NCBI GenBank assembly: GCA_022496785.1
Contig: SNAP01000003.1
Coordinates: 190,447-254,446, forward strand
Length of the DNA stretch: 64,000 nt
Origin: Marinilabiliaceae bacterium JC040
Lineage (GTDB): Bacteria; Bacteroidota; Bacteroidia; Bacteroidales; Marinifilaceae
Reading direction: 5' to 3'
Under the pieces are notes generated by a model. The model worked only from the letters and a program-made list of their open reading frames with translations. It was not told the origin of the DNA and made no database searches. Every line of letters begins with the position of its first letter. Positions within the stretch are counted from its first letter, which is position 1. The position numbers and the translations under genes were made by a program. This document shows, one piece after another, positions 35,459 to 44,887 of this stretch.

Positions 35459-38400
35459 TTAAAAAGTTATCTTTAAACCAAATGTGTAAGTCTTTGGAGG
35501 CTTAACAACATTGCTAAGTCTTGGTATATACTCTGGATCAATATTTTCTTTATTTGCAGTCCATAACATACCTACATTACTCATTTGAGCATAAAGAGTT
35601 ACATTTTTCAATTTTAATTTTGACATTATTGCTTTTGGTAATGTATACCCTAAATAAATATCATTGAATCTTATAAAAGATGCATCTCTGACATTCGCAC
35701 TACTATTATTATAATAGTTAGACCATAAATGTCCATACGATTTTAACAATGTATTATCTACATTCTCTTCTGGACTTGTTTTTGGAATATTTGAATTTTT
35801 ATTTGCATTAGACCATCCATTTGCAGAAGCCTCAGATGTTGTAAATGAATTTCTAGATATAGTACTTCCAGACACACCTGGTAATAAAAACTTATGACCA
35901 AATTTACCAGAAACGGTAGCGATTAATTCAAAATTTTTGTACTTAAATGAATTTCTAAATGTTGATGTAACAGAAGGAGTTCTTCTTCCTGAATATTTTA
36001 AGAAATCATATACATTTTGTCCTTTCACATAATCTATTTGATTTATATCACTTGAAGGAAGATTTTTATCTATAGTTAATTCTTGACCGTTTATTCTAAC
36101 TATCGCAGCTCCTTGATCTGAAACACCTACCCACTCATAAGTATTTAAATAATCAATTGGCTTCCCTTCAATAAATGTACCTCCTCTTAAATAATTACTT
36201 ACAACATTATTTCTATAATCAAAAGAAGTTACTTCATTATAATTATAAGCTACATTCAATAGACCATTCCATTCAAGACCTTTAGTAATCTGCAAATTCG
36301 AACCTAATTGTAATTCTACTCCTCTATTTAATACTTCAGCAAAGTTTCCACTTAAAATCTTATTTGGATTAATCATTGCAGCAACACTTTTCGAAGCAAC
36401 AACATCTGTAGAATACTTATTATAGAATTCTATACTACCAAATAGTTTATTAGAGAATAAAGAAAAATCGATACCTAAATTAAATGTATTTGATTTTTCC
36501 CATGTCAAATCAGATAATCCATAACTCATTATATTTGCAAAAGGAATATTTGCTCCATAAGTATTATTCACACCATATCCAACAGTTGTCAATGTAGATA
36601 AATTTTGTCTTGCTGCTGGTAAACCTACAACACCATAAGAAGCTCTTAATGATAATCTATTAATCCAGTTAAAGTTATCAGCAATAAAATTCTCTTTATG
36701 AATATTCCACATAGAACCTACAGACCAAAATGGAGAAAATTTCTCTTTTACACTTTCAGATACAAAATTAGAAGCATCTGTTCTCATACTTATAGAAAGA
36801 GAATAAGTATCATCATATGAATAAGCAAAATTGAAATAACCTGAGAAATATCTATTATATTCTCTGTACTCATTTCTTAAACTATTAGGCTTGTTAAATA
36901 CATCACCCATAGTCGTTTTACCACCATTTTTTTCATGATACTCTAACTCTTTAGTAAAATCAAAAGTATTTCCTGTAAAAGTTAAAGGATCATACCCCAT
37001 AATTTGCCTTGTAGAAGGTTGAACATATTCACTTGAAATAGCTTCAGTACCTACTAAGACATTAATATTATGCTTTGGAAGTATTTCTTTCTTATATTCT
37101 AATTGAGTTCTAAAATTATAAGCTGTTTTTTCAGTGTTTCTTTCAAAAAGAATACCTCCTTTAGAAAATCCTTCTGGGTGATAATCATAAGTAGTTCCTC
37201 CCTTATCTGTCTTATTAGAAGAAAAAGTATTAACTAAATTTCTAACATAGAAAGTTTTCTCGCTACTAAAATTCTTCCAATGATTATTGAATAATTCATA
37301 TTGGAATTGACTGGTTAAAGTTAAACCTTCAATAATCTTATAATTTAATTGAGTTTGTAATCTTATAGAATTCGAATTGAAATTATTATCTCTATTTCTA
37401 GCTTCTTCTAAAATATTATATCTCCAATTTTTATAAGGCATTCTATCTTGCATATATTGTCTGTATGGAAGATAGTAACCAGATGAAGGCATATCTGTAT
37501 AATCACCATTTTTATCAACAAATTGTTGATATGGAGAAACAGATCCTTTTATTTCACTAAAATCAACACCATTCATTTGAGAATCTTTAATATTCACAGA
37601 AGCATTGAAACCAATAGATAATTTATCATTAAACTTGTAAAGATTGTATAAAGAAACTAAATACTTATTAATTCTATTATACTGATAACCAGTCAAATCC
37701 TGATCAAACATAGCAGATAATCTATAAGTATTTTTTTCTCCTTTTCCTGAAACACTAATATTATGCTGATGCATTAAAGGGTTTCTTAAAAGATATTTGT
37801 CATAATCATCTCTATAATTTAAACCTTTAAGTCTATTCAATTCCTTCATCATTTCAGCATCAGATAAACCTCTACCTTGATTGTTTTCTATTAATAAAGA
37901 TTGAGAATAACTATATCCTTGTCTCCATTTTGTATCAGCTGGTATATCAGAAAACATTCCATTCTTCATAAATGCAATTTCTCTATTAATTTGCTGTTCA
38001 GAATTCATCATACCTAAAGAATAATCTAAATCATATTTATTAGATATCTTAACAAATCCGCTATAAGAAACATTGAACTCTTCTTTTTTTGCTTTCTTAG
38101 TTGTTACAACAATTACACCATTTGCAGCACGTGCACCATATATAGAAGTAGAAGCAGCATCTTTCAATACTGTTACATCTTGAATATCATTTGGATTTAT
38201 TGATGCTAAATCTCCATCAATAGGGAAACCATCAACTACAATTAAAGGATAACTACCTCCTGTAAGAGATCCTTTTCCTCTAATCACAAGATTTGTATTA
38301 CCATTCTTGTCTACATCAGATGTAAGTCCAGGAACCAAAGTCGCGATAGTGCTTGTAATATCAGTAACAGGATTCTTTTCTAAAACATCAACATCTACTT

Positions 38401-39091
38401 TAGAATAAGCTCCTGTTGCTCTTTCTTTAGAAATTGTTTGAAAACCTGTAACAACAACCTCTCCAAGCATCACTTTATCTTCACTTAAAACTACTCTTAA
38501 AACTTTTTGCCCTTTATATTTTACCTCTTTAGGAATCATTCCTACAAATTCATATACAAGAACAATATTCTTTTTATTTGGTAATTTAAGTTCATAAGTA
38601 CCATCTATATTTGTACTTACTCCAACTTGTGTTCCTTTAACAGAAACAGAAACTCCAGGTAGAGTATTTCCATTTTCATCAACAACAACACCTTTTATAA
38701 ATTTATCTTCAGCTTGCTTAATTTCATTCTTCTTTGGGAAAATCACAATAATTGAATTCTCAAATTTAAATGAAAAAGGTTTATCACTAAAAACATTCTC
38801 TAATACACTCTTAACTGTCTTGTTATTTACATTAATATCAACTTTACCAAGATTCTTAATCTGTTGAGAATTGTAAATAAAATTCAAATCTGTCTGTTTA
38901 TGAATACTTGTAAGTAGTTCATTAATGCTAATATTCTTTGCATTAATCGTAACAGTTTGATTCTGAGAGAAAGTTTTTGCGGTAGAACCTAAACTAAAAA
39001 TAAATAGAAAAATAAGACTTAGCCTCATAATCTTAAATTTTTGTGAGTTCTTAATTAGTCCATAAAGGCTAATTAATAGATTTTTTTTCAT
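35459..39091 (-). CDS. SusC/RagA-family TonB-linked receptor with STN domain
   Basis: About 1210 residues. A signal region is followed by a secretin/TonB short N-terminal (STN) domain (QTVTINAKNISINELLTSI onward), a carboxypeptidase-like domain (GVVVDENGNTLPGVSVSVKG), a plug (TGAYSKVDVDVLEKNP; VVDGFPIDGDLASINPNDI; VLKDAASTSIYGARAANGV) and a C-terminal barrel ending TFGLKITF. An STN domain couples ligand binding to the FecR/sigma pair encoded upstream. An in-frame ATG eight codons earlier (39115) is possible; I prefer 39091 (MKKNLLISLYG), which gives a standard SusC N-terminus. Confidence 0.93.
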   Translation of the reverse strand: MKKNLLISLYGLIKNSQKFKIMRLSLIFLFIFSLGSTAKTFSQNQTVTINAKNISINELLTSIHKQTDLNFIYNSQQIKNLGKVDINVNNKTVKSVLENVFSDKPFSFKFENSIIVIFPKKNEIKQAEDKFIKGVVVDENGNTLPGVSVSVKGTQVGVSTNIDGTYELKLPNKKNIVLVYEFVGMIPKEVKYKGQKVLRVVLSEDKVMLGEVVVTGFQTISKERATGAYSKVDVDVLEKNPVTDITSTIATLVPGLTSDVDKNGNTNLVIRGKGSLTGGSYPLIVVDGFPIDGDLASINPNDIQDVTVLKDAASTSIYGARAANGVIVVTTKKAKKEEFNVSYSGFVKISNKYDLDYSLGMMNSEQQINREIAFMKNGMFSDIPADTKWRQGYSYSQSLLIENNQGRGLSDAEMMKELNRLKGLNYRDDYDKYLLRNPLMHQHNISVSGKGEKNTYRLSAMFDQDLTGYQYNRINKYLVSLYNLYKFNDKLSIGFNASVNIKDSQMNGVDFSEIKGSVSPYQQFVDKNGDYTDMPSSGYYLPYRQYMQDRMPYKNWRYNILEEARNRDNNFNSNSIRLQTQLNYKIIEGLTLTSQFQYELFNNHWKNFSSEKTFYVRNLVNTFSSNKTDKGGTTYDYHPEGFSKGGILFERNTEKTAYNFRTQLEYKKEILPKHNINVLVGTEAISSEYVQPSTRQIMGYDPLTFTGNTFDFTKELEYHEKNGGKTTMGDVFNKPNSLRNEYREYNRYFSGYFNFAYSYDDTYSLSISMRTDASNFVSESVKEKFSPFWSVGSMWNIHKENFIADNFNWINRLSLRASYGVVGLPAARQNLSTLTTVGYGVNNTYGANIPFANIMSYGLSDLTWEKSNTFNLGIDFSLFSNKLFGSIEFYNKYSTDVVASKSVAAMINPNKILSGNFAEVLNRGVELQLGSNLQITKGLEWNGLLNVAYNYNEVTSFDYRNNVVSNYLRGGTFIEGKPIDYLNTYEWVGVSDQGAAIVRINGQELTIDKNLPSSDINQIDYVKGQNVYDFLKYSGRRTPSVTSTFRNSFKYKNFELIATVSGKFGHKFLLPGVSGSTISRNSFTTSEASANGWSNANKNSNIPKTSPEENVDNTLLKSYGHLWSNYYNNSSANVRDASFIRFNDIYLGYTLPKAIMSKLKLKNVTLYAQMSNVGMLWTANKENIDPEYIPRLSNVVKPPKTYTFGLKITF

Positions 39092-39152
39092 AATTTTGTA
39101 AATTGAAGTTAACATTAGAATAAGTCGTTATTAAAACTTATTCAAATTATTA

Positions 39153-39184
39153 AAACCGAACAGGGGTGAGATACTGTTCGGTTT
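39153..39184 (-). terminator. Terminator between fecR and susC
   Basis: An 11-bp stem AAACCGAACAG/CTGTTCGGTTT with a 10-nt loop, 4 nt past the fecR stop, followed by TTTTAATAATTT on the minus strand. It separates the regulator pair from the transport genes, as expected if susC is driven by the ECF sigma factor itself. Confidence 0.8.
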
Positions 39185-39187
39185 CTT

Positions 39188-40357
39188 TTATTTTGTCACT
39201 ATTATTTTCTTATTACGTATAATAAATTTAACACTTAAAGTTTCTTCCATAGACTTTAAAATCACATCAACATTCTTATATCTTTTTAAATTCGCTGAGA
39301 ATCTTAATTCTTTTAGATCCTCATGTAAAAACTCAATATCTACATCATACCATAAACTTAATGTATGTAAGATATCTTCTAACCTATTATCTCTAAAAAT
39401 AAATTCATTATCTACCCACGAAGTATATAAATCAGTATCTACTTTTTTAATCTTAACATTACTTGTTTTTAAATTTAAACTTCCCAATTGACTAGGTTTT
39501 AAAGTATATTCTTTTTTCCCTAAGAGCATACTAACCTTACCTTCAACCAATACAGTTTCTACTTTACTATGTAAATTTGAATTCACATTAAATCGTGTTC
39601 CATAAACTTTTACTTTCATTTTATCTACTGAAACTATAAAAGGACTACTTACACTATGTTTCACTTCAAAGAAAGCTTCACCTTTAAGATACACTAAGCG
39701 CTTCTTATCAGAAAAAGCAAGAGGATATCTCAATCTTGTATTAGAATTTAGTTTAATTCTAGAACCATCAGATAAAACAAGACTATACTCTCCTCCTTTA
39801 GGAACAACAATCTCATTATATTTATTTTGGAATTTTTTATTCGATTTATTATATCGCCTATATTTTATCTGCTCATCATCACTTACAATATCAACTCCAT
39901 AGGTAGATTTTATCTTCTTTTCTTTTTTCACTTCTCCTAAGGATATTGTCTTTCCATCAGATAAAATTAATTTAGCCTTACTTGAACCTGGCTTTATTAT
40001 AGATTTAGCAATAACAGGTACTTTTTGTATATCTTTCTTATTATTTACCACAAAAAGATAAGAAACTAATAAAGGTAAAATAATCGCAGCAGCATAAGCT
40101 AAAACGCGTCTTGCCTTAACATATACATCTAGACCTAATTTCTCTGAAACTTTTCTCCAAGCTTCTTTCTTATCAATCTTAGAATCTAGTTTATAATAAT
40201 CCTTGAAATTTTCAACAGAAACAATTCTATCAAATAAATTCTTATTCTTATCTGACTTATTCTTCCATTCTTCAAGTACTGATAATTCATCTTTAGATAT
40301 TGAACCATCAATATATTTGAATATTAAATGTGATATTTTTTTATTATTTCTATACAT
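39188..40357 (-). CDS. FecR-family anti-sigma factor
   Basis: A 389-residue protein. The cytoplasmic N-terminal ~85 residues (LIFKYIDGSISKDELSVLEEWKNKSDKNK) bind sigma. A membrane helix lies at about 85-103. The periplasmic FecR domain has VPKGGEYSLVLSDGSRIKLNSNTRLRYP and FFEVKH...PFIVSVDKMKVKVYGTRFNV. The C-terminal DUF4974-like domain (FIFRDNRLEDILHTLSLWYDVDIEF) contacts the STN domain of SusC. It follows the sigma gene after 67 nt. Confidence 0.94.
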   Translation of the reverse strand: MYRNNKKISHLIFKYIDGSISKDELSVLEEWKNKSDKNKNLFDRIVSVENFKDYYKLDSKIDKKEAWRKVSEKLGLDVYVKARRVLAYAAAIILPLLVSYLFVVNNKKDIQKVPVIAKSIIKPGSSKAKLILSDGKTISLGEVKKEKKIKSTYGVDIVSDDEQIKYRRYNKSNKKFQNKYNEIVVPKGGEYSLVLSDGSRIKLNSNTRLRYPLAFSDKKRLVYLKGEAFFEVKHSVSSPFIVSVDKMKVKVYGTRFNVNSNLHSKVETVLVEGKVSMLLGKKEYTLKPSQLGSLNLKTSNVKIKKVDTDLYTSWVDNEFIFRDNRLEDILHTLSLWYDVDIEFLHEDLKELRFSANLKRYKNVDVILKSMEETLSVKFIIRNKKIIVTK

Positions 40358-40424
40358 ATAGAGAACCTCTTTTACTACTATAACAGCTAAAGGATAAAAA
40401 AGGAGTATTCAAAAAAGTGTTTTT

Positions 40425-40988
40425 TTATAAAAAAACGTAAAAAGATAGATTCCCCAACTTTTCTGTAATCATTCTTTTAGCCTTTTGCTTATGGGTTTTA
40501 GCAGTCAATCTTGATATTTCTAGAATTTCTGCTATTTCATTATTATTTTTCCCCTCAAGATGTAATTTAAATACCTTTCTACATTTATTAGGTAGCTCCT
40601 CAATTGCATCGAACAACAATTTATATACCTCTTGTTCCATCTCTACATCTTCTGTATCGACATACACACTAGAATTATTTTGAACGTGATAGATATATTT
40701 TTCTTTTACTTTAGAATGTTCTAATTCATTTAAACATTTATTTCTAACTGAAGTATAAAGATATGTTTTGATATTATCATAAGATGACATTTCTTTCCTT
40801 TTAGTCCAAATCTTAGTAAAAACATCCTGTACTATATCCTCCGACATATGGGAATCTTTAATATAGGAATACGCAAATCTCACTAGAGGTAAATAAAACT
40901 TATCAAATATTTTTTTAAAAGCTTTTCTTGTACCTATATTGACTTCTTCAATTACAAATTCCTTATTCGTACGTTCATTCAATTCCAT
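40425..40988 (-). CDS. ECF RNA polymerase sigma factor
   Basis: A 187-residue sigma-70 family protein. Region 2 is FDKFYLPLVRFAYSYIKDSHMSEDIVQDVFTKIW (read as two parts), and region 4 is LPNKCRKVFKLHLEGKNNNEIAEILEISRLTAKTHKQKAKRMI. This is the Bacteroides-type ECF sigma that is held by FecR and turns on the adjacent susCD genes when substrate is sensed. A TATCTTTG -7 box lies immediately upstream (41001-40994, minus strand), so basal expression uses the primary sigma. Confidence 0.95.
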   Translation of the reverse strand: MELNERTNKEFVIEEVNIGTRKAFKKIFDKFYLPLVRFAYSYIKDSHMSEDIVQDVFTKIWTKRKEMSSYDNIKTYLYTSVRNKCLNELEHSKVKEKYIYHVQNNSSVYVDTEDVEMEQEVYKLLFDAIEELPNKCRKVFKLHLEGKNNNEIAEILEISRLTAKTHKQKAKRMITEKLGNLSFYVFL

Positions 40989-41212: not shown

Positions 41213-41220
41213 CATGCGTT

Positions 41221-41301
41221 TCACGGAGGGGTGCCTTAAAATTACGGGCTGAGAACAAACCCATAAACCTGATACGGGTAATGCCGTCGTAGGGAAATTT
41301 T
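41221..41301 (+). promoter_or_regulatory. TPP (thi-box) riboswitch
   Basis: All conserved thi-box blocks are present in order: GGGGTGCC (41228-41235), GGGCTGAGA (near 41246), ACCC, AACCTGATACGGGTAATGCC (near 41266-41285) and CGTAGGGAA (near 41287). The aptamer binds thiamine pyrophosphate and lowers expression of the downstream genes. It sits 37 nt before the receptor ATG. I cannot tell from sequence whether control is by translation or termination, as no clear intrinsic terminator follows the aptamer. Confidence 0.95.
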
Positions 41302-41337
41302 AATCCTCCTATATATTATAAACTAATATTGGAAAAA

Positions 41338-43575
41338 ATGAAAATTAATGTTTTAATTCCTGCACTAATGATTTTAGCAGGAAGTGCTTTTGGACAAACT
41401 ATTAAAAATGATAGTATAAGTAAAAAAGATAGTCTCCAAACTGTAAATCTAAAAGAAGTAGAGGTAGTTTCTACTCGTGCCACAAGTAACACTCCAGTTG
41501 CTTTTACTAATATCTCTAAAAAAGATCTTAAAAGAAGAAATAATAGTAAAGATCTACCCTATCTATTAAGTCTATCACCATCAATCATCACTACATCCGA
41601 TGCAGGAACAGGTATAGGATATACATCTATGCGAGTTAGAGGAACTGATGGTACAAGAATAAATGTAACAATTAATGGAATACCAGTAAACGATGCAGAA
41701 AGTCATTCGGTATTCTTTGTAAATCTTCCAGACTTCACATCATCAGTAAAAAACATACAAATACAAAGAGGAGCAGGAACTTCAACTAATGGTGGTTCTG
41801 CCTTTGGTGCTAGTGTAAATATGCTAACAGGTGGACTAAGTCCTAAGTCTTATTCAGAAATAAATACAAGCTTTGGTTCTTTTAATACTCATAAAGAAAC
41901 ATTCAAATTTGGTACTGGCTTAATAAATAAACACTGGATATTCTCAGGTAGATTATCAAATATCGGAACTAAAGGATATATAGATAGAGCCTCTGCCAAT
42001 TTAAGTAGTTACTTACTGCAAGCAGGATATTTCAACGATAACACAGTCATTAAATTCATCACTTTTAACGGAGTAGAAGAAACTTACCATGCATGGAATT
42101 ATGCAAGTAAAGAAGAAATGAAAAAATACGGTCGTACATACAATTCTTGTGGAAAATATACAGATTCTAATTCAAAAATAGCATTCTACGACAATCAAAT
42201 CGACCACTACAATCAGCAAAATTACCAAATCTTACTAAACCACCGATTTAGTAATGAATTAAGTATTAATACAGGAATCCACTATACAAGAGGAGACGGA
42301 TACTACGAAGAATACAAACAAGATCGTACTCTAAGTAATTACGGGCTATCTTCATATAAATATCTAGGTGTAACTTTCGACACATCCGATTTAGTAAGAA
42401 GAAAACAAATGGCTAACGATTTTGGTGGATTAGTAGCATCATTGAACTACAAGACAGATAAATTCACAGCTAATATTGGTGGTAACTTTAATCGCTACGT
42501 TGGAGATCACTTCGGTAATGTTATTTGGATTAGAAATTATATTGGTGCTTTCAATCCTTCACATGAATATTACACTAATCAAGCAAGAAAAAATGATGCA
42601 AACTTATACGCAAAAGTATCATACAATTTCACAAGTAAAACTAGCTTCTTTTTAGACCTTCAATATAGAAATATCGATTATAAGATATACGGATCTAACG
42701 ATAACTTCGATTGGATAAACAATAAAATGCAAGATCTTGACATACATGATTCATTCAATTTCTTTAATCCTAAAACAGGAATCAATTGGAATATAAGTAG
42801 AAATCATAGAGCATATGCATCTCTTGCAGTAGCACAAAAAGAACCAACACGTAACAACTATACCGACGGATATGTAAACAAACGCCCTACTTCTGAAAAG
42901 ATGTTAGACTACGAATTTGGATATCAATTTAAATCTTCGATATTTAGTCTAGGTACAAACTTCTACTATATGGATTATAAAGATCAACTTGTACTAACAG
43001 GAGAAAATAATGAAATTGGTGAAGCAGTATCTGCTAATGTAGATGAATCATATAGAATGGGAGTAGAATTCATTCTTAAAGCTCAATTCCTTAAAAACTG
43101 GACTATAGATGCAAATGCTACTTTCAGTAAAAACAAGATTAAGAACTTTAAAGAAACTCTTTACGATAAAAACTACCAAAAATGGGAAATCAATCATAAA
43201 GAAACAACCATAGCATTCTCTCCAAACACAATTTTAAATGGAGCAATATCATACAACAGTAAACACTTTAACGCTTCATTCAACACTCAATACGTAAGTA
43301 AACAATTCATGACAAATGCAGAACAAGATGAATGTTCATTAGATTCATATATTGTTTCAAACTTACATCTTTCATATACATTTAAAACATCACTATTTAA
43401 AGAAATCACAATAGGATATTCATTAAACAATGTATTCAACGAAGAATATGAAAACAATGGATGGGCAGGAAGTTATTTCTACGAAGATAAAGGTGTAAAA
43501 ACTAGAGGAAATTGGGCATCATATGCAGCTCAAGCAGGCAGACACTTTATGCTAAACCTAGCAATAAAGTTTTAA
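41338..43575 (+). CDS. TonB-dependent receptor, probable thiamine transporter
   Basis: A 745-residue outer-membrane receptor. A signal peptide (ends GSAFGQ) is followed by a plug with KEVEVVSTRAT, MRVRGTDGTRINVTINGIPVNDAESH and IQIQRGAGTSTNGGSAFGASVNM, then a barrel ending GRHFMLNLAIKF. TPP riboswitch control and the downstream PnuC-TPK gene indicate uptake of thiamine (strong context inference). I set the start at the ATG 41338, not the in-frame TTG three codons upstream, since MKINVLIPALMILAG is a normal signal peptide. Confidence 0.93.
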   Translation: MKINVLIPALMILAGSAFGQTIKNDSISKKDSLQTVNLKEVEVVSTRATSNTPVAFTNISKKDLKRRNNSKDLPYLLSLSPSIITTSDAGTGIGYTSMRVRGTDGTRINVTINGIPVNDAESHSVFFVNLPDFTSSVKNIQIQRGAGTSTNGGSAFGASVNMLTGGLSPKSYSEINTSFGSFNTHKETFKFGTGLINKHWIFSGRLSNIGTKGYIDRASANLSSYLLQAGYFNDNTVIKFITFNGVEETYHAWNYASKEEMKKYGRTYNSCGKYTDSNSKIAFYDNQIDHYNQQNYQILLNHRFSNELSINTGIHYTRGDGYYEEYKQDRTLSNYGLSSYKYLGVTFDTSDLVRRKQMANDFGGLVASLNYKTDKFTANIGGNFNRYVGDHFGNVIWIRNYIGAFNPSHEYYTNQARKNDANLYAKVSYNFTSKTSFFLDLQYRNIDYKIYGSNDNFDWINNKMQDLDIHDSFNFFNPKTGINWNISRNHRAYASLAVAQKEPTRNNYTDGYVNKRPTSEKMLDYEFGYQFKSSIFSLGTNFYYMDYKDQLVLTGENNEIGEAVSANVDESYRMGVEFILKAQFLKNWTIDANATFSKNKIKNFKETLYDKNYQKWEINHKETTIAFSPNTILNGAISYNSKHFNASFNTQYVSKQFMTNAEQDECSLDSYIVSNLHLSYTFKTSLFKEITIGYSLNNVFNEEYENNGWAGSYFYEDKGVKTRGNWASYAAQAGRHFMLNLAIKF

Positions 43576-43586
43576 AATAAACAATT

Positions 43587-43617
43587 AAAAAGTCTAGATT
43601 TAAATATCTAGACTTTT
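43587..43617 (+). terminator. Hairpin terminator between the receptor and pnuC-TPK genes
   Basis: A 12-bp stem AAAAGTCTAGAT/ATCTAGACTTTT with a 6-nt loop, 12 nt past the receptor stop and 16 nt before the next ATG. It may partly terminate the transcript and so lower expression of the inner-membrane gene relative to the receptor. Confidence 0.7.
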
Positions 43618-43632
43618 ATATCATAAAGAACT

Positions 43633-44850
43633 ATGGAATACTTAGAAATTATTGGAACAATCGTAGGATTAATTTATTTATATCTAGAATACAAAGCAAA
43701 CATATACGTATGGTTAGCTGGTTTTATAATGCCAGCAATCTACATAAAAGTATACTACGATGCAGGTTTATATGCAGATATGGGTATTAATGTCTACTAT
43801 CTTATAGCAGCAGTTTATGGTTGGATTATTTGGAAAAGATTAAAGGATAATAAATCAAAAACAGAAGATACGAATGCAGATATCAAATTCATGCCGAATA
43901 AATACCTAGTTCCACTCTCAGTAATTTCAGTAGCCATCTTTGGTATCATTGGTTTTATACTAACAAAATACACCAATAGCAATGTACCTTGGCTCGATAG
44001 TTTAACAACAACCTTAAGTATAGTTGCTATGTGGCAGCTAGCACACAAATATATAGAACAATGGATCTTATGGTTTATAATAGATGCTGTAAGTTGCGGT
44101 TTATACATATATAAAGATCTTCCTTTCACATCTGGCCTTTACGCACTATACTCAGTAATTGCAATAATAGGATATTATAAGTGGTATAATATGAGTCTTA
44201 TCTCAAAAGAAAAATACATTTCAAACGAAAATATCTATATCAATCAGATAAAGAAATTCTCAACCCTAATAATCTGTAATGGTGAATTCCCTAAGAACAA
44301 TATTTCTAAAGAATTAATAAAAAATGCAGAAAAGATTATATGTTGTGATGGAGCAGCTGATACAGCAATTGAGAATAAAATTATACCCAATATAATAATT
44401 GGTGATGGTGACTCTATATCAAAACAAGTACAAAAGAACTATTCAGATAGATTTATTCATATAAAAGATCAAGAAAACAACGATCTTTCAAAAGCAGTAA
44501 ACTACTGCCAAGAACAAAATATTGATAATATAGCCATACTTGGATTAACAGGAAAAAGAGACGATCACACCATGGCAAATATTAGTCTTCTAAACACATA
44601 CAAATCAAATATCATTAGTGTTACCGACTATGGAATGTTTGTTACATGTAAAGATAATTCTAAACTATCCACATATAAAGGACAACAAATCTCCATTCTT
44701 AATTATAATGCTACAGGTTTAGATTCTAAAGATTTAAAATATCCTATATACGATTTTAAAGAAACATGGCAAGGAACATTAAACGAATCAATAAAATCAG
44801 AAATAGAAATAAAAGCAAAAGGTAAATATCTAGTATACCTAAACTTCTAG
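43633..44850 (+). CDS. PnuC-type thiamine transporter fused to thiamine pyrophosphokinase
   Basis: A 405-residue fusion in a single uninterrupted frame. Residues 1-185 are a PnuC/PnuT-type facilitator with six to seven membrane helices (GTIVGLIYLYLEYKANIYVW; GINVYYLIAAVYGWIIWK; a C-terminal region ending YYKWYN). A linker (186-208) leads to a complete thiamine pyrophosphokinase domain: CDGAAD (238-243), GDGDSI (257-262), DQENNDLSKA (279-288) and GLTGKRDDHTMAN (304-316). The transporter half would let thiamine across the inner membrane and the kinase half trap it as TPP. In related bacteria these are usually separate neighbouring genes. Met187 could serve as an internal start, but no stop separates the halves. 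Confidence 0.92.
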   Translation: MEYLEIIGTIVGLIYLYLEYKANIYVWLAGFIMPAIYIKVYYDAGLYADMGINVYYLIAAVYGWIIWKRLKDNKSKTEDTNADIKFMPNKYLVPLSVISVAIFGIIGFILTKYTNSNVPWLDSLTTTLSIVAMWQLAHKYIEQWILWFIIDAVSCGLYIYKDLPFTSGLYALYSVIAIIGYYKWYNMSLISKEKYISNENIYINQIKKFSTLIICNGEFPKNNISKELIKNAEKIICCDGAADTAIENKIIPNIIIGDGDSISKQVQKNYSDRFIHIKDQENNDLSKAVNYCQEQNIDNIAILGLTGKRDDHTMANISLLNTYKSNIISVTDYGMFVTCKDNSKLSTYKGQQISILNYNATGLDSKDLKYPIYDFKETWQGTLNESIKSEIEIKAKGKYLVYLNF

Positions 44851-44856
44851 AAAAAG

Positions 44857-44887
44857 AAAAAGCCGTATAATTAAATTATACGGCTTT
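44857..44887. terminator. Bidirectional terminator
   Basis: A 13-bp stem AAAGCCGTATAAT/ATTATACGGCTTT with a 3-nt loop between the convergent PnuC-TPK and aldolase genes, A-rich on the left and with a short T-run on the right. Confidence 0.88.

Follow-up and report, generated by a model that had tools for sequence, protein, structure and literature searches.

A probable pnuT–thiamine pyrophosphokinase gene fusion in Marinilabiliaceae bacterium JC040, so far a single example of its domain arrangement

A reading frame at 43633–44850 of the window (the whole 64,000-nucleotide stretch of DNA that was analysed) from Marinilabiliaceae bacterium JC040 raises the question of whether a PnuC-type membrane carrier and a thiamine pyrophosphokinase (TPK) are encoded here as one protein, and whether such a protein would take up thiamine in a new way. 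The features on which the answer depends are as follows, in positions of the window.

41217 to 41312, plus strand: TPP riboswitch aptamer (RF00059; 54.6 bits, gathering score 54.3)
41329 to 43575, plus strand: gene for a TonB-dependent outer-membrane receptor, likely a thiamine receptor (OMthi-like; PF00593, PF07715)
43588 to 43617, plus strand: AT-rich hairpin in the gap between receptor gene and fusion gene, a possible partial terminator or processing site
43633 to 44850, plus strand: pnuT–TPK fusion gene, 405 codons plus stop (open reading frame, Pfam, NCBIfam)
43639 to 44187, plus strand: PnuC/PnuT membrane domain, residues 3–185 (PF04973; structural match to 4qtn_A)
44188 to 44262, plus strand: PnuC tail and linker, residues 186–210 (alignment, model, codon content)
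44263 to 44847, plus strand: TPK domain, residues 211–405 (Pfam, NCBIfam, match to 2omk)
44859 to 44887, no strand assigned: terminator-like hairpin between the fusion gene and a convergent fructose-bisphosphate aldolase gene (13 pairs, listed on the minus strand)

The initial annotation had claimed a single 405-codon PnuC–TPK frame, and this claim is confirmed: the frame runs from the ATG at 43633 to the TAG at 44848–44850, encodes 405 amino acids with no internal stop, and carries three Pfam domains, all above their curated cut-offs. The membrane domain PF04973 covers residues 3–185 (E 8.9e-57) and is matched over profile positions 2–174 of 175 at 192.3 bits against a cut-off of 27.3, i.e., as a whole-length family match. 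The catalytic part of TPK, PF04263, lies over residues 226–328 (E 4.1e-29) and the substrate-binding part, PF21275, over residues 334–402 (E 5.7e-26). In NCBIfam, the thiamine diphosphokinase equivalog TIGR01378 is matched at 135.1 bits (cut-off 76.4) and the PnuC equivalog TIGR01528, a nicotinamide riboside (NR) transporter family, at 94.3 bits (cut-off 42.45). By sequence, the solved structure nearest to the TPK half is 2omk (E 2.9e-55), and that nearest to the PnuC half is 4qtn (E 6.8e-9). The TPK motifs GDxDS, NDxxKA and TGxRxDH are conserved and have functional roles; the fusion retains them as GDGDS, NDLSKA and TGKRDDH, in alignment with relatives and with 2omk, and the strings CDGAAD, GDGDSI and LTGKRDDH read earlier from the letters are present as stated. 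The PnuC–TPK fusion frame is real, and both of its domains are complete. At the base composition of the 64-kb window, 405 stop-free codons would arise by chance with a probability of about 5e-15; the corresponding value for a 20-codon linker is about 0.2, which is not rare. A linker of about 20 residues had been proposed, and this holds if it is counted between residue 187, in the PnuC tail, and residue 211, where the first TPK strand is predicted, which gives 23 residues, but not if it is taken as the spacing between the Pfam matches, which is 41. A match to the Rfam family RUF2 inside the gene (43670–43764) was taken as chance (19.9 bits against a gathering score of 90, E 1.6).

How unusual such a frame is was assessed by whole-genome protein searches in four overlapping samples of Bacteroidota, drawn from the order (393 genomes), family (56), phylum (395) and class (395), in which 304, 34, 274 and 283 genomes, respectively, gave matches. 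Among the matches listed, the only one that covers both domains without a stop is JC040 itself, so the search for the same two-domain architecture in related genomes yielded no second intact case. Other matches over both domains all contain at least one stop, with 4 listed in the order sample and 12 in the family sample (one genome being common to both) and none among the matches listed in the phylum and class samples (395 genomes each). A fusion should rank high in such searches because both domains add to its score, although one of great divergence might escape notice among the weaker order, phylum and class matches. The top-scoring other genome belongs to the same family as JC040, which is the only genome of its genus in the 56-genome family sample. 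JC040 also appears to share its genome-taxonomy family with Odoribacter lunatus, which the NCBI taxonomy places in Odoribacteraceae, Bacteroidales.

The alignment scan of named genomes gave at least 592 stretches, at least 551 of them relatives, and the best 80 of the 551, all with Bacteroidota titles, were examined. Both genes are found in 77 of these 80 and PnuC only in three; pnuC and TPK are separate in 76 of the 77 loci (24 in the same frame, 52 in another frame) and joined in one. The claim that two neighbouring genes are the norm in Bacteroidetes is therefore borne out among the best 80 of 551 relatives, and the accessible part of PMC5613172 agrees. A frame in the Prevotella MAG RUG753 (ONYL01000059.1, match 1742–2845) was rejected as a second fusion since it is not intact, missing both the end of PnuC and the first strand of TPK. 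This 402-aa frame joins the last helix of PnuC to the middle of TPK and looks like a deletion or a misassembly.

A single-protein scan of genome contigs found no relative, and a scan of the viral contig collection found none either. In the phage collection, 398 records matched, two of them with a query coverage of at least 80% (MT838261.1, and MT836775.1 in two pieces). MT838261.1 was rejected as a second fusion because two stops lie between its pnuC and TPK; it is a 5.5-kb unverified faecal record labelled bacteriophage, in which the pnuC–TPK pair follows a frame resembling a TonB receptor, and it is probably a fragment of a Bacteroidales chromosome. Of 72 matching plasmid records, one reaches at least 80% query coverage, namely Bacteroides finegoldii plasmid 17 (NZ_OY725919.1), where two genes are annotated. 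This 86-kb record carries a row of TonB receptor, pnuC and TPK genes, and the thiamine uptake operon may thus sit on plasmids. In a literature search with limited coverage of subscription journals, none of the titles listed names a PnuT/PnuC–TPK fusion, and the accessible portions of PMC5613172, PMC7749635, PMC6593275, PMC7221760 and PMC4921024 make no mention of one. The PnuC–TPK fusion looks rare.

The junction can be compared codon for codon with that of O. lunatus, in which the two genes are separate. The O. lunatus sequence reads ...AAA GAA TAA GGT GTG ATG AAT..., and that of JC040 reads ...AAA GAA AAA TAC ATT TCA AAC.... The pnuC stop (TAA) of O. lunatus aligns with a lysine codon (AAA) in JC040, and the ATG start of TPK is absent in JC040; this pairing of stop and lysine is confined to O. 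lunatus and relies on a gap of two residues that the aligner placed just before it. As part of our overall account of the locus, which we hold with good confidence, the fusion probably arose in a standard two-gene operon in which pnuT lost its stop codon and TPK its start codon.

A single-example fusion in a draft genome of 117 contigs could instead reflect a sequencing or assembly error, by which a stop or frameshift between two real genes was lost near the junction. In favour of this reading, no second intact fusion is among the matches listed, a single substitution would turn any of 14 codons between 184 and 211 into a stop, the linker contains three runs of four or five A (at 44205, 44210 and 44228), and another draft, RUG753, has a join that is artefact- or deletion-like. 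However, such an error in the linker would leave the TPK without an ordinary start. ATG187 is the only in-frame ATG, GTG or TTG in codons 151–299, and were the linker to contain a stop at any codon beyond 187, the TPK would have no such start downstream. Nor would the TPK gain a start from an indel in an A-run, since in the other two frames the interval from the last stop (44192 and 44187) to the runs contains no ATG, GTG or TTG. The remaining place, just after codon 184, where an indel would create a stop overlapping ATG187, has no run of four or more identical bases, and the resulting PnuC would end two to three residues past the tryptophan of its conserved GYxxW end, whereas all 43 relatives' tails reach at least five residues beyond it. 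The contig is 373,752 bases long, and its nearer end is about 139 kb away from the junction. A simple sequencing error is thus quite unlikely, because the stretch from the junction to the TPK core holds no start and Met187 belongs by alignment to the PnuC tail; the loss by error of a stop near 44190, raised by the initial annotation, meets the same difficulty, as the TPK would then lack an ordinary start.

Met187 also bears on a second alternative, in which the frame is real but some or most of the TPK is translated from this residue as an internal start, so that the cell would contain PnuT and TPK as separate proteins, or a mixture. ATG187 is an in-frame codon 24 residues upstream of the first strand predicted for the TPK, and the TPK leaders of relatives vary, some exceeding 20 residues. 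Translation in Bacteroidota is not known to depend on strong Shine-Dalgarno sites, which counts in favour of such a start. However, Met187 matches a methionine in the C-terminal tail of the O. lunatus PnuC rather than its TPK start. It stands three residues after the GYxxW tryptophan, and a methionine occurs three residues after this tryptophan in 9 of 43 relatives' PnuC tails, and three or four residues after it in 30 of 43. This count excludes three loci from JC040's own genome, and the 43 tails are not independent because two loci have an identical tail. In addition, no stop separates the two halves, so a full-length product would still be expected. An independent start at Met187, the other doubt raised at the outset, is accordingly unlikely, a methionine at or beside that place being common in relatives' tails.

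The genes around the fusion suggest what it carries. The TPP riboswitch, which scores only just over its gathering score, is followed by the TonB receptor gene (starting at TTG 41329 or at the in-frame ATG 41338), then by a 57-base gap with a hairpin, and then by the fusion gene. The thiamine role of the receptor is likely, to judge from the riboswitch and the operon order. The TPP riboswitch is thus placed before the TonB receptor gene and not directly before the fusion. The gap (43576–43632) folds at −14.4 kcal/mol (z −5.9, hairpin 43588–43617); this hairpin, rated terminator-like on the minus strand only, could partly uncouple the fusion gene from the riboswitch. Control of the fusion gene by the riboswitch is presumed and not a given, since in the transport operons of B. 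thetaiotaomicron the transcript level did not change significantly with thiamine (accessible part of PMC5613172). Upstream of the riboswitch, on the minus strand at 35459–40988, genes for a TonB-linked outer-membrane protein, a FecR-like protein and an ECF sigma factor are grouped, an ordinary arrangement in Bacteroidota; of the three, the sigma factor was the one covered by a family search.

The membrane half could in principle carry another substrate, such as NR, with the fusion being incidental: its NCBIfam match (TIGR01528, 94.3 bits) is named for NR transport, and its fold matches that of an NR-carrying PnuC. However, its partner is a TPK and its operon opens with a TPP riboswitch. According to the sections of PMC5613172 available, a carrier of this type beside a TPK is a thiamine carrier in Bacteroidetes, and those of PMC7749635 describe the substrate of PnuC-like carriers as predictable from the class of the controlling riboswitch. 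Another substrate is therefore very improbable, and the membrane half would be specific for thiamine, as the TPP riboswitch, the TonB receptor and the TPK partner together suggest.

The genome of JC040 (2.56 Mb in 117 contigs, a draft, 95.66% complete) contains neither a second PnuC nor a second TPK at E values up to 0.001, as far as this draft extends. It has three TPP riboswitches, including that at 41217–41312. The second is near a thiC-containing cluster, and the third is near a cluster of what we take to be ThiD, ThiM, ThiE and TenA proteins, named by eye from sequence. ThiC is present and ThiL scores above its cut-off; with this gene content JC040 seems capable of TPP synthesis, and the fusion is most readily taken as its salvage route, with the TPK as a salvage enzyme.

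An AlphaFold2 model of the fusion chain (53 sequences, single chain) has a mean pLDDT of 93.2 and a pTM of 0.74. In this predicted model, the PnuC half (range 1–192) has the PnuC fold, superposing on 4qtn_A with a Z score of 16.1 and an rmsd of 3.4 over 180 aligned residues (Foldseek E 5.1e-7), and the TPK half superposes on 2omk_B with a Z score of 27.2 and an rmsd of 1.6 over 197 aligned residues at 43% identity. SteA, HPPK, transhydrogenase, methyltransferases and other lower entries of the structure search were taken as partial resemblances. The model predicts that the last membrane helix extends over residues 164–206, which would make the linker helical rather than a loose string; since few alignment sequences span the junction, a linker helix running on from the last membrane helix is a lead. 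The loop at residues 68–76 is positively charged, and by the positive-inside rule this suggests a cytoplasmic loop, which would place the C terminus and the TPK in the cytoplasm as well. The solved PnuC is a trimer and TPK is a homodimer, and the fused halves may thus mismatch in assembly.

Taken together, these observations make it probable that JC040 has a genuine pnuT–TPK gene fusion in an operon of TPP riboswitch, TonB receptor, pnuT and TPK, which would act by facilitated entry followed by trapping. The TonB receptor would bring thiamine into the periplasm, and the PnuT half would let it pass the inner membrane by diffusion; in the cytoplasm, the TPK half would use ATP to convert it to thiamine pyrophosphate, which could not exit via the carrier and would thus be metabolically trapped. 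Translation as one chain, thiamine as the substrate and the trapping itself are what we infer here. Fusion fixes the ratio and place of carrier and enzyme, and it may speed trapping.

The nearest known system is the OMthi–pnuT–tnr3 operon of Bacteroidetes, in which, according to the accessible part of PMC5613172, the genes, their order, the TPP riboswitch and the proposed path of thiamine are those of JC040, but pnuT and TPK are two genes rather than one. The same source reports that OMthi, pnuT and tnr3 (TPK) lie in one operon in most of the gut Bacteroidetes genomes surveyed and that PnuT of B. thetaiotaomicron carries thiamine in E. coli, and the available text of PMC7749635 likewise treats PnuT as a thiamin carrier. 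The TPK of B. thetaiotaomicron (2omk), to which the JC040 half is 43% identical, is a 231-residue chain without a membrane half. The PnuC/NadR pair (PMC7221760, in its accessible part) resembles the fusion in its carrier fold (4qtn, an NR carrier) and in the logic of trapping by phosphorylation inside the cell, with facilitated diffusion through PnuC and metabolic trapping by a separate NadR; it differs in substrate and enzyme and in consisting of two proteins, for whose direct contact there is no experimental evidence. In LplT–Aas, a lysophospholipid carrier and an acyltransferase, the genes for carrier and cargo enzyme are neighbours in many bacteria, and in some they apparently form a single frame, whereas the protein families and the cargo differ from those of the JC040 fusion (PMC11416262, as far as its text is accessible).

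These comparisons bear on the suggestion, made by the initial annotation, of a "group-translocation-like" arrangement. It is not supported, since facilitated diffusion and trapping, as in the scheme in the available part of PMC7221760, suffice and a shared chain alone proves no channelling. Pfam at E values up to 0.001 gave only PnuC and the two TPK families in the fusion protein, with no PTS enzyme II domain. A tighter form of the idea is a coupled unit in which the last helix extends as a rigid rod into the TPK and thiamine would be handed over before mixing with the cytoplasm, amounting to vectorial pyrophosphorylation; we regard this as improbable. According to a survey of gene fusions, channelling was not promoted by the act of fusion itself (PMC4921024, accessible part). 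Nor is a fusion automatically functional, since expression was disrupted when LplT carried its partner enzyme at the C terminus (PMC11416262, accessible part).

On the evidence available, the fusion of facilitated carrier and trapping enzyme in JC040 is real and is so far a single example of a new domain arrangement, and it is no new kind of system. The two-gene pnuT/TPK operon is already standard in print; the single-chain arrangement is new, and its parts are well known. The known thiamine pathway is left unchanged by it. PnuC-type uptake has been proposed to be sustained by the enzyme that traps the cargo (accessible part of PMC7221760, for PnuC/NadR). The natural fusion links PnuT strongly to TPK at the genome level, and it offers a ready tool in which carrier and trapping enzyme are held at a fixed 1:1 ratio and can be compared with the two-gene form of close relatives.
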